A stretch of DNA of 36,892 nucleotides from a virus, in the IMG/VR virus record IMGVR_UViG_3300048925_000282, positions 1 to 36,892 of that record; one strand, 5' to 3'. This document shows, in pieces, positions 1-33,717 of the stretch. Below the pieces are notes generated by a model. The model did not search any database and was not told the DNA's origin. It saw only the letters and a list, made by a program, of their open reading frames with translations. The number at the start of each line of letters is the position of its first letter. Positions within the stretch are counted from its first letter, which is position 1. The translations under genes and the position numbers were made by a program.

Positions 1-77
1 CGAGTGGTTTAAGGCAACGGTCTTGAAAACCGTCGACTGTAACAGGTCCATGAGTTCGAATCCCATCGCCTCCGCCA
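1..77 (+). tRNA. tRNA-Ser(UGA), 5' end cut by window edge
   Basis: Most of a class II serine tRNA is visible. The anticodon stem ACGGT (17-21)/ACCGT (29-33) encloses the loop CTTGAAA, with anticodon TGA at 24-26. A long variable region follows, then a T-arm containing GTTCGAATCC, the 3' acceptor strand, and CCA at 75-77. About a dozen 5' bases lie outside the window. Serine tRNAs are frequent phage integration targets. Because the gene points right, an element integrated in its 3' end would extend to the right, where the prophage genes lie. Confidence 0.95.
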
Positions 78-30374: not shown

Positions 30375-30998
30375 TCAGGCCGACTTGAGCAGACAGGTTC
30401 CGCAGGCCCTCGAAATGTTCAATTTCCCCACCTCAGCAGGATTGTTTGCAGCGTCCACCAGCGCTTGAACTGCTGGGTTCGCACCGTAGCGACGGACCAC
30501 GCCGACGAACTCTTCAACGTCGTGCCCGCGCATCTCGAGCTTGGGCAAGCCGTCCTGAGTGAAAGCTGGTTGACCGTACTTATCGGTCGCTTGGGCGATG
30601 TGATACAGCTCGTGTTCGACCAAGGCGCAGAAGTCCGCGTCGCTGCACTGGGCGCAGTAGTCGGCAGCCAGGGTGATGATGTAGGCCGGCACGTCGCCGA
30701 ACCAATCCAGCATCTGCTGCTCCATACGAGCCTTCTGCCAACCGCCAGCTCGGAACGCAACCTGTTCAGCTTGACCAACCACCGTCCGCCCCTTCTTCGT
30801 GAAGGCAGCAGATGCCCACATCACACGAATGTCCGCATCGATCAGATGGGCATGGTCTGCGTTGTGGATGCTGCCTGTGTCAGCGAGGATTTCGGCCTGG
30901 AGCCATTCCCACACGTCAGTTGCAGGGATCAGGCGAATACCGATGCTGGACAGCTCAGACAGGTCGAGCAGTGATGCAGGAGGCATTGGTCTGTCCAT
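30375..30998 (-). CDS. Phage metallopeptidase (HExxH)
   Basis: 207 residues; the HELYH zinc motif is at about 129-133, followed 30-35 residues later by MRGHDVEEFVGVVRRYG, as in the putative phage metallopeptidase family. Three cysteines precede the motif (YCAQCSDADFC). No signal peptide, so it acts in the cytoplasm. The substrate is unknown. It lies between the holins and terminase in many Pseudomonas prophages. AAGGTGAG stands before ATG 30998. Confidence 0.85.
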   Translation of the reverse strand: MDRPMPPASLLDLSELSSIGIRLIPATDVWEWLQAEILADTGSIHNADHAHLIDADIRVMWASAAFTKKGRTVVGQAEQVAFRAGGWQKARMEQQMLDWFGDVPAYIITLAADYCAQCSDADFCALVEHELYHIAQATDKYGQPAFTQDGLPKLEMRGHDVEEFVGVVRRYGANPAVQALVDAANNPAEVGKLNISRACGTCLLKSA

Positions 30999-32101: not shown

Positions 32102-32126
32102 AAAAAGCCCCTGCGAATGCAGAGGC
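32102..32126 (-). terminator. Hairpin terminator upstream of holin genes
   Basis: Read leftward, GCCTCTGC-attc-GCAGGGGC (one G-U) is followed by five T. It stands about 85 bases before the holin start, so holin expression needs read-through or a promoter after it. Confidence 0.7.
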
Positions 32127-32350
32127 CCTGAATAGGTGCGCACGTCTTTCCGCGCTGTCCGCCAAAGGCCTTCTTAGCGTCGACGCCCCTTTGCATCGAT
32201 CTCGCTGATCCAGTCTCGCGCCACCCTGCGAGCAGATGGTGAGCTCGGAGTGCGCGGGCTGCCGGTGTTGATTCCGTACGTCGCACTATCCGGCTATCGA
32301 CGTCCAGGCCTTCCTGAGGGCTGTCCTGGCTATAGGTAAATTTAAGGCAT
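32127..32350 (-). other. Intergenic stretch with a possible gene remnant
   Basis: No complete gene is supportable here. On the minus strand, one frame from about 32297 to 32178 reads SATYGINTGSPRTPSSPSAR then RVARDWISEIDAKGRRR and a TAA. It lacks an ATG and follows a TAG. The tail looks protein-like, so this may be the end of a decayed gene. Nothing else stands out between the two flanking terminators. Confidence 0.3.
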
Positions 32351-32378
32351 AAAAAAACCCGCACTGGGCGGGGCTTTT
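32351..32378 (-). terminator. Hairpin terminator, mainly leftward
   Basis: Read leftward, CCCGC-ccagt-GCGGG is followed by seven T. On the plus strand the same stem is followed by CTTTT, so weak two-way action is possible. It separates the holin region from the rightward membrane-protein gene. Confidence 0.75.
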
Positions 32379-32397
32379 AGAATTTCTGGGTTCCAGA

Positions 32398-32452
32398 TGA
32401 TCCTTTCGCTTAATCTTGCCGACTCTCACATCAGGCAGTTACGAAAGGATCA
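32398..32452 (+). promoter_or_regulatory. 11-bp inverted repeat covering a ribosome binding site
   Basis: TGATCCTTTCG (32398-32408) pairs perfectly with CGAAAGGATCA (32442-32452), with 33 bases between. The right arm contains AAAGGA, the ribosome site of the gene starting at 32457. If transcribed together, the arms would mask translation initiation. No clear promoter was seen, so whether the left arm is in the transcript is unknown. Confidence 0.5.
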
Positions 32453-32456
32453 CTAG

Positions 32457-32786
32457 ATGCCAAACGATACCCTAACAACGATCATCACAACCACAGTCGT
32501 TACGATCATCGCTACAGTCATCGCCAACCAACTAAGCAAGTCCGTCGCGATAGAGCGGATCAGCCAGTTGATGGGAAACATCATCGCGAACATCGCAAAG
32601 TTCATGGCCAAGTTCGGCGTTAGTTTAGGCTTCATTTTTTGGACCATTTGGACGTGGTTTTCATTCGCCGCAAGCAACAAGCCCATCGATCGCATTGAAG
32701 TCTTGGAGCTTGTCTATTTTTCGGGGCTCGGATTCTGGTTCATTCAAGACCTGATTCGAGACCTCACCAGCAAGAAAACTACTTGA
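32457..32786 (+). CDS. Membrane protein of unknown function (109 aa)
   Basis: ATG 32457, AAAGGA seven bases upstream. The N-terminal segment (TTIITTTVVTIIATVIANQL) and a second one near 54-72 (FGVSLGFIFWTIWTWFSF) span the membrane; a third weak one is near 88-102. The charged middle has a helical, oligomerisation-like look. Transcribed against the late operon between terminators, like a phage moron; superinfection exclusion or lysogenic conversion are possible roles (inference). Confidence 0.7.
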   Translation: MPNDTLTTIITTTVVTIIATVIANQLSKSVAIERISQLMGNIIANIAKFMAKFGVSLGFIFWTIWTWFSFAASNKPIDRIEVLELVYFSGLGFWFIQDLIRDLTSKKTT

Positions 32787-32863
32787 ACGGACAATCGAAA
32801 ACACTCCTGGAGGGTAGTATCGTACTTTTTCGTACGCCGGCTAATGAAGTTACATGCTGGCGG

Positions 32864-33628
32864 TTATCTGCCGAGAGCGGGCCTCCAAAGTGGAGTGACT
32901 TTGAGCGGCCCAATCTTTTGATAACTCATTTCAGTCAGCGTCTTAACGTCGCGGATTGAGAACGTATGCCCAACCTCGCCGTTCAGCAATTTAGACGTGA
33001 GCGCCTTGTCTCCGTAGAAGCCGAGGATGACCTCATCCTTGGTGCACCAGTAATACGTCTCAAGCTCAGCATTCTTCGCGCCGTAGGCAGAAACCATCCA
33101 GCACAAAATGAAGACAATTAGCGTTAGCACGGGACACAATCTAGCGATACGCCAAAACTTCTGATCTCTAGTTTCCACCGGCCTTTCGTCATGTGGAAGC
33201 TCGTTACCCAAATCCGGAGGGGTTGGCGGGCTTTTAATTAATAAAAAGACCACTGAAACGGCGGCAACACAAACAAAAAAGATCTTCCAGCCAGCGCCGT
33301 TAACCAAAGTAATCAGCAAAAGAGCGAACAAACCGATGATGTGCAACGCCGCATATGCTCGATGGACGCCCTTCAGCCATAAAAACCTCATAGAAAGAGC
33401 TACCACTGCGGCCATCGGTATCACCGACGGATACGCCTTGAGAATCACATCGGAGAAACCAAACGACCCCAACTGCAGAAAATCAACTGGCGCATTGAAA
33501 TATCCCAATCTCCCGATTTCGTACAGTGCAAGGACCCCATAGGAGAATGGCCCCAGCACTGCAACCAGTGAGACTAAAGTGGTGAATACTGAAACCTCGA
33601 ATTTTTTCGCGCTCACAAAAAAGCCCAA
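32864..33628 (-). CDS. Multi-pass membrane protein of unknown function
   Basis: About 250 residues. The longest frame starts at TTG 33628 inside a terminator stem; GTG 33616 (VSAKKFEVSVFTTL) is more plausible. Five or six membrane segments, a hydrophilic loop at about 135-165 (SPPTPPDLGNELPHDERPVE), and a soluble C-terminus with a YYWCTKDEVILGFYGDKAL stretch. No family with known function. It converges with the 109-residue membrane gene and lies after the likely late promoter. Base composition looks A+T-richer than nearby phage genes, suggesting a separate origin. Confidence 0.7.
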   Translation of the reverse strand: MGFFVSAKKFEVSVFTTLVSLVAVLGPFSYGVLALYEIGRLGYFNAPVDFLQLGSFGFSDVILKAYPSVIPMAAVVALSMRFLWLKGVHRAYAALHIIGLFALLLITLVNGAGWKIFFVCVAAVSVVFLLIKSPPTPPDLGNELPHDERPVETRDQKFWRIARLCPVLTLIVFILCWMVSAYGAKNAELETYYWCTKDEVILGFYGDKALTSKLLNGEVGHTFSIRDVKTLTEMSYQKIGPLKVTPLWRPALGR

Positions 33629-33645
33629 CTTAGGCGGTTGGGCTT
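33617..33645 (-). terminator. Strong hairpin terminator, tR'-like position
   Basis: Read leftward, a 9-bp perfect stem (AAGCCCAAC/GTTGGGCTT) with a 7-base loop is followed by TTTTTT. It lies some 40 bases downstream of the candidate late promoter at 33688-33717 and right in front of the multi-pass membrane gene. Confidence 0.82.
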
Positions 33646-33687
33646 TAGCTCACTCCTCAACACGCGCAGGAATGACAGGATGAGTGA

Positions 33688-33717
33688 ATAATGCGACATG
33701 GCGACATGACATTGCAA
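33688..33717 (-). promoter_or_regulatory. Candidate late promoter (PR'-like)
   Basis: Read leftward, TTGCAA (33717-33712) and CATTAT (33693-33688) with an 18-base spacer, each 4/6 to the sigma-70 consensus. Inside the spacer is a tandem GCGACATG repeat (33693-33708). It lies just after the Q-position gene and before a strong terminator, as PR' and tR' do in lambda. The hexamer matches are modest, so this is a prediction. Confidence 0.4.

Follow-up and report, generated by a model that had tools for sequence, protein, structure and literature searches.

Does the hairpin that encloses the start of a small cargo gene in a lambdoid phage hold that gene in check, and which DNA strand would supply the structured RNA? 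In lysogens, the cargo genes of temperate phages are frequently expressed, and their dose has to be controlled. The window analysed here, a stretch of 36,892 nucleotides corresponding to positions 1 to 36,892 of IMG/VR virus record IMGVR_UViG_3300048925_000282, is of lambdoid type and has most of its genes on the minus strand, including those for NinB, NinG, two holins and a metallopeptidase. Its relatives in homology searches come from Pseudomonas. Between the NinG side and the holins lies a plus-strand gene for a 109-aa protein, preceded by a leader hairpin.

The gene and its inverted repeat

The gene (32457..32786, plus strand) starts with ATG at 32457, has the Shine-Dalgarno (SD) sequence AAAGGA at 32444-32449 and encodes a membrane-type protein predicted to be all-helical. 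The initial annotation assigned it to no known family, which holds for Pfam, where no family matches the window protein at E up to 0.1, but not for PHROG, where all seven tested family members match phrog_26906, a group of unknown function. The other matches were too weak to assign a function: the defence candidate PDC-M72B of PADLOC (E 0.0011, 17 bits; found for two of the seven family members at E up to 0.5), three NCBIfam rows far under cut-off and an OPG140 chain (E 0.11). Since the structural model is of low confidence (pLDDT 67.5, pTM 0.35), it was too weak for a fold search.

Upstream of the gene, TGATCCTTTCG (32398..32408, plus strand) and CGAAAGGATCA (32442..32452, plus strand), which are 33 nt apart, are complementary at 11 of 11 positions, and the right arm contains AAAGGA, confirming the perfect 11-bp inverted repeat that had drawn attention to the locus. 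The window has three perfect 11-bp repeats with spacers of 3-60, against 0.58 expected per shuffled window, a number reached in none of 60 shuffles; the other two lie at 89-114 and 2365-2394 and also have short spacers. Taken alone, the 11-bp repeat is close to chance and not rare by itself. It is nevertheless significant, because the leaders of six other Pseudomonas phages or prophages share the hairpin. The plus strand of the window leader folds at -29.4 kcal/mol (z -3.4), equalled in 1 of 200 shuffles. The whole element (32392..32461) covers the ribosome site and the start codon and folds on both strands, the minus strand being favoured as the structured RNA. Its apical loop, TCTCAC on the plus strand (32424..32429) and GUGAGA on the minus strand, is near-invariant, being identical in six of seven leaders and TCTCAT in the seventh, L024.

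The cargo cassette and its distribution

The closest relative of the window protein (78%) is encoded by Pseudomonas sp. MIACH (L001), and the same sequence is present in IMG/VR (L002). A more distant relative (37%) is found in phage Cruim01 (L004), with near copies in six IMG/VR contigs. The gene family occurs in 5 of 398 genomes of the genus to which the L001 genome belongs, which added sequences L023 to L026; in a second search, of 383 genomes that were largely the same, seven matched, namely the four known and three weak ones. Viral contigs queried with L024 and L026 gave no new members, phages queried with L023 and L026 none except Cruim01, and plasmids queried with the window protein no match. 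In two distant matches, L043 and L044, the leader is absent by eye. Seven leaders were thus compared, forming clade 1 (window, L001, L023 and L024) and clade 2 (L004, L025 and L026).

In viral contigs, the pattern TAAYCTNGNNGACTCTCACA was found in eight stretches, of which seven precede this gene family and one (L007) lies beside an unrelated frame; given this near confinement, we rejected the idea of a general regulator motif. A longer pattern, with up to two mismatches, gave six matches in 5 of the 398 genus genomes, four before the gene family and two (L033, L038) unrelated to it, compared with three matches for reversed-pattern controls; the pattern missed the L026 genome, which has the gene. 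No partner for the loop was found elsewhere in the window, where TGTGAGAG occurs only once, at the loop itself.

Leader hairpin and gene together make up a cassette of ~480 bp (32373..32854) that is absent, by blastn, from the related prophage L052. In this relative, the flanks match window positions 32122-32372 (84.6%) and 32855-33693 (83.5%) with 50 nt between them, and the cassette is a removable unit missing from a related prophage, as expected of a moron. Adjoining the empty site in L052 is a relative of the 254-aa protein encoded at window 32864-33628 (minus strand), which has no Pfam, PHROG, NCBIfam or PADLOC match at E up to 0.1. The left flank matches in 238 of the 398 genomes, in many of them over a short terminator-like piece only; among 30 loci fetched, one (L067, the phage of L001) has the gene next to the flank and 29 have other content. 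These matches (L046-L075) stop at query positions 198-258, beyond which different genes follow, and the site from window 32373 onward, next to the Proteo-phage-1 RNA, appears to be a hot spot at which cargo changes.

The Proteo-phage-1 RNA itself (RF03044, 78.8 bits) lies at 32257-32335 on the minus strand and is followed by a terminator-like site (32129-32104) before the holins. In the window and L001 it lies on the gene's left side, but in L026 and L024 on the right, with the L024 match only just over threshold; L023 and L025 have no match. Judging from these arrangements, the hairpin element travels with the gene. Lambdoid phages have their late promoter and its terminator in the place held here by the Proteo-phage-1 RNA, which may be a late leader RNA. 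Two further features of the window were noted: the product of 30375-30998 (minus strand) matches phrog_513, labelled transposase, and a Pfam putative phage metallopeptidase (E 5.4e-43), so that the transposase label looks wrong; and a tRNA match cut by the window edge (1-74, plus strand; 32.8 bits, with no ARAGORN call) is possibly the prophage attachment site.

Conservation and covariation in the leader

Across the seven leaders, an inner block, TANYCT...[AG]CTCTCA, is conserved at a near-constant distance from the ATG. Identity is 0.39 in the left outer arm, 0.72 in the left inner arm, 0.95 in the loop and 0.48 in the right inner arm; since the left inner arm (0.72) exceeds its right partner (0.48), its conservation goes beyond what pairing demands. 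On the plus strand all seven leaders form a hairpin enclosing the ribosome site and the start codon, those of L024 and L004 being weaker. When outer left arms were swapped between lineages, 17 of the 21 lineage pairs favoured the native arms on each strand, with one tie and three pairs that did not; the tie is a difference rounding to 0.0, and counting it as positive gives 18 of 21. The exceptions involve L024 with clade 2, plus close relatives within one clade. For L024, they amount on the plus strand to -8.0 with L004 and -1.1 with L025, and on the minus strand to -6.5 with L004, -3.4 with L025 and -0.2 with L026. The remainder of the L024 leader pairs better with the arms of L004 and L025 than with its own arm, a preference that may reflect recombination. 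The seven leaders are not independent, as the arms of the window, L001 and L023 are common by descent and those of L025 and L026 partly so; the weight is therefore carried by swaps between unlike arms.

Shuffling the left arm gave, on the plus strand, p of 0.001-0.013 in five of the seven leaders (window 0.003, L001 0.001, L023 0.013, L025 0.01, L026 0.001) and no significant arm signal in L004 (0.19) and L024 (0.42). The minus-strand values are 0.001 for the window, L001 and L026, 0.003 for L023, 0.005 for L025, 0.18 for L004 and 0.21 for L024. With dinucleotide shuffles on the plus strand, valid for six leaders with L024 left out, five reach p 0.016 or less (window 0.001, L001 0.0005, L023 0.016, L025 0.001, L026 0.0035), L004 being at 0.061. 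Furthermore, two gap-free double substitutions retain a pair, A32395-T32454 of the window becoming G-C in L001 and a C-G pair of L025 becoming T-A in L026; a third pair change, T-A to C-G in the SD stem between the window and L001, includes a one-base deletion. RNAalifold found no pairs on the MAFFT alignment (A4), in which the arms of the two clades are, by eye, one base out of register, and for this reason the arm-swap and shuffle tests were used instead of a covariance model. Synonymous sites close to the gene start are under no clear constraint in a codon constraint test. Overall, these comparisons make it very probable that the structured initiation region is real. The earlier proposal of a purposeful structure over the ribosome site accordingly stands in so far as the same hairpin recurs in homologues with different arms, but its transcript from the left arm onward is the less favoured reading, a start to the right of 32408 being tentatively preferred.

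Antisense and self-masking readings of the hairpin

A hairpin with covarying arms suggests that reading of the gene is prevented, either by a small opposing RNA or by the hairpin alone. The reading that we tentatively prefer, at slightly less than even chances, is control of the leader like that of the IS10 RNA-IN/RNA-OUT pair, with a putative antisense RNA from the minus strand. A weak plus-strand promoter with its -10 element in the left inner arm would start an mRNA with (A)CUCUCACA at the loop. As this start, at ~32422, falls in the loop, the left arm would lie outside the mRNA, leaving the opposite strand as the main source of the hairpin. An RNA transcribed from the minus strand, with its 5' end near the start codon, would fold into the hairpin with UGUGAGAG exposed in its loop, seed on the 5' end of the mRNA and zip along it, covering the ribosome site and the ATG. 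The gene would thus be kept low in the lysogen and be further shut when minus-strand phage transcription crosses it. Under such control, the double role of the loop as seed and as mRNA 5' end would account for its conservation, and the arms would covary because each has to match only the other. The main alternative, possible but less likely, is a self-masking mRNA, in which both arms are transcribed and a protein, an RNA, temperature or processing opens the leader, perhaps at the CUCUCACA loop; arm covariation is equally expected from it.

The two readings differ in where the mRNA starts. The candidate -10 element, TAATCT (32411..32416, plus strand; start ~32422), belongs to TANYCT, present in all seven leaders, and has no convincing -35. 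A sigma-70 consensus scan of both strands around the element in the window, L025 and L004 passed no site. When both strands were scored with matrices up to 60 nt from the loop and positions were combined over both clades, TANYCT, at offset -13, was the best -10 hexamer common to the two (2.94), ahead of an overlapping plus-strand hexamer (1.31) and the best one on the minus strand (1.19). Requiring a -35 leaves it at the top of 140 positions, by a small margin (1.73 versus 1.29). To the left of the left arm, where a self-masking mRNA would have to begin, no shared promoter scores above the TANYCT site.

On the minus strand, TTGTGA, 15 nt and TATCGT (32464..32490) form a candidate antisense promoter with a start near the ATG, and a terminator-like hairpin with a T run (32352..32372, minus strand) would end an antisense RNA of ~105 nt. 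The best of 170 shared minus-strand positions starts at the ATG (5.19), followed by one at ATG+17 (4.89). As the best score per 230 random window bases has a mean of 4.6 (sd 1.7, 95th percentile 7.6), the ATG promoter sites do not stand out. Against synonymous shuffles, the ATG promoter has p 0.125 in the window, 0.125 to 0.38 in clade 1, and 0.009 (L004), 0.009 (L025) and 0.071 in clade 2; in L004 and L025, a different minus-strand site starting near -28 scores higher (9.15 versus 7.23). Terminator-like sequence follows the gene, by eye, in L001 and L023, and none was seen after it in the window.

Accessibility of the ribosome site speaks to both readings. When the leader includes the left arm, pairing takes up nearly all of the SD window in five leaders, as self-masking predicts (unpaired 0.02 in the window, 0.03 in L001, 0.10 in L023, 0.13 in L026 and 0.17 in L025), but open to 0.50 in L004 and 0.32 in L024. 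In an mRNA starting at the loop, the ribosome site is freer in all seven (rising from 0.02 to 0.59 in the window), a tendency expected from any removal of an arm. Self-masking is also consistent with the plus-strand fold of L001 (z -7.2), but would leave the excess conservation of the left inner arm over its partner unaccounted for.

Energy differences between the strands do not settle which of them acts as RNA. The minus-strand energy is lower in all seven leaders (in L024 by 0.1), or in six of seven with slightly different ends, an advantage that is partly base composition. Against shuffles, the strand difference stands out in the window (0.047) and L025 (0.031) alone, and is weak in L004 (0.14), neutral in L023 (0.29), L024 (0.54) and L026 (0.48), and opposite, toward plus, in L001 (0.94). 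The minus-strand hairpin has z of -3.25 to -5.14 in the window, L001, L023, L025 and L026, and of only -1.28 in L024 and -1.44 in L004. A.C oppositions, which are G-U pairs on the minus strand only, number 27 versus 13 G.T, although 6 of the 27 are one A.C at the loop common to the leaders. Moreover, a U-tract directly follows the minus hairpin, by eye, in L004, L025 and L026, and is lacking in L024. This asymmetry and the U-tracts indicate the opposite strand and thus argue against self-masking.

The same U-tracts could mean that the minus-strand hairpin is a mere terminator of the phage operon, its overlap with the gene start being incidental, and a terminator scan of L004 and L025 indeed placed a site on the 3' side of the hairpin in L004, with none there in L025. 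We consider this improbable, since clade 1 (window, L001, L023) has a separate terminator some 20 to 25 nt past the minus hairpin, L024 being without it, since the loop and TANYCT are conserved and since the element stays at the ATG, though the cassette lies on either side of the Proteo-phage-1 RNA. The clade 1 terminator belongs to the phage backbone, outside the cassette, because related loci without the gene also have it. Translational coupling through a leader peptide crossing the hairpin is very unlikely: a frame of 19 codons (32397-32456, plus strand), whose TAG abuts the ATG, is shared by eye, with LxDSHIRQ, by the window and L024, but in L001, and by eye in L023, the start codon there opens a frame that continues into the gene without a stop, and L004 has no start codon by eye. 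Least credible of all is a DNA operator for a dimeric repressor, for although the repeat is perfect in the window, its arms are not conserved in sequence (left outer identity 0.39), and elsewhere in the window the arm has a single near copy, with one mismatch.

Collectively, the conserved -10 element, the conservation of the left inner arm, the G-U asymmetry and the U-tracts favour the antisense reading in the sequences compared, and the weak promoters, the undecided strand test and arms of L004 and L024 that are no better than shuffles count against it. With somewhat less confidence still, we propose that a transposon-style cis-antisense circuit, the promoter of its target nested in an RNA-OUT-like hairpin, may have evolved or been captured as dose control for a mobile cargo gene; in such a circuit, the loop would be kept while the stem is rewritten. 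If this is true, an RNA-pair element travelling with its gene would explain safe entry into new phages, and others could be searched for by their signature, in which a short block is conserved and the stem is free-running.

The element has no counterpart in Rfam 15, where no family covers the hairpin RNA and the RNA-OUT covariance model gave no row either at gathering scores or at E up to 1. The more permissive search, of window 32300-32520, left five minus-strand rows that do not reach gathering scores, namely a cut Proteo-phage-1 match, two leader families, a microRNA and an sRNA. No description of this leader element or of Proteo-phage-1 was found in the accessible parts of open-access papers. 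In self-masked leaders and type I toxin mRNAs, the ribosome site is paired in the full-length leader, as it is here; typical type I toxins are shorter than 109 aa. Further parallels are offered by phage P22, in which, according to PMC12197685, sas RNA acts on sieB, a superinfection-exclusion gene, and sar RNA on ant, both on translation, with lengths of 105 and 68/69 nt; sas RNA is also described in PMC7067206. The candidate RNA considered here would likewise be a short phage antisense RNA acting on translation of a phage gene. The window protein shows no SieB homology, no Pfam family matching it at E up to 0.1, and there is no sign here of two alternative protein starts. In IS10/Tn10, as described in PMC5006887, the antisense RNA-OUT is 69 nt long and complementary, over its first 35 nt, to the translation initiation region, and mutations in the RNA-IN promoter also destabilise RNA-OUT. 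The present locus resembles it in having a leader of ~35 nt, a hairpin of ~70 nt and a candidate promoter that lies within the hairpin's 3' arm, and differs from it in that the RNAs are here predicted from sequence and that the gene under putative control encodes a cargo membrane protein here and a transposase there.
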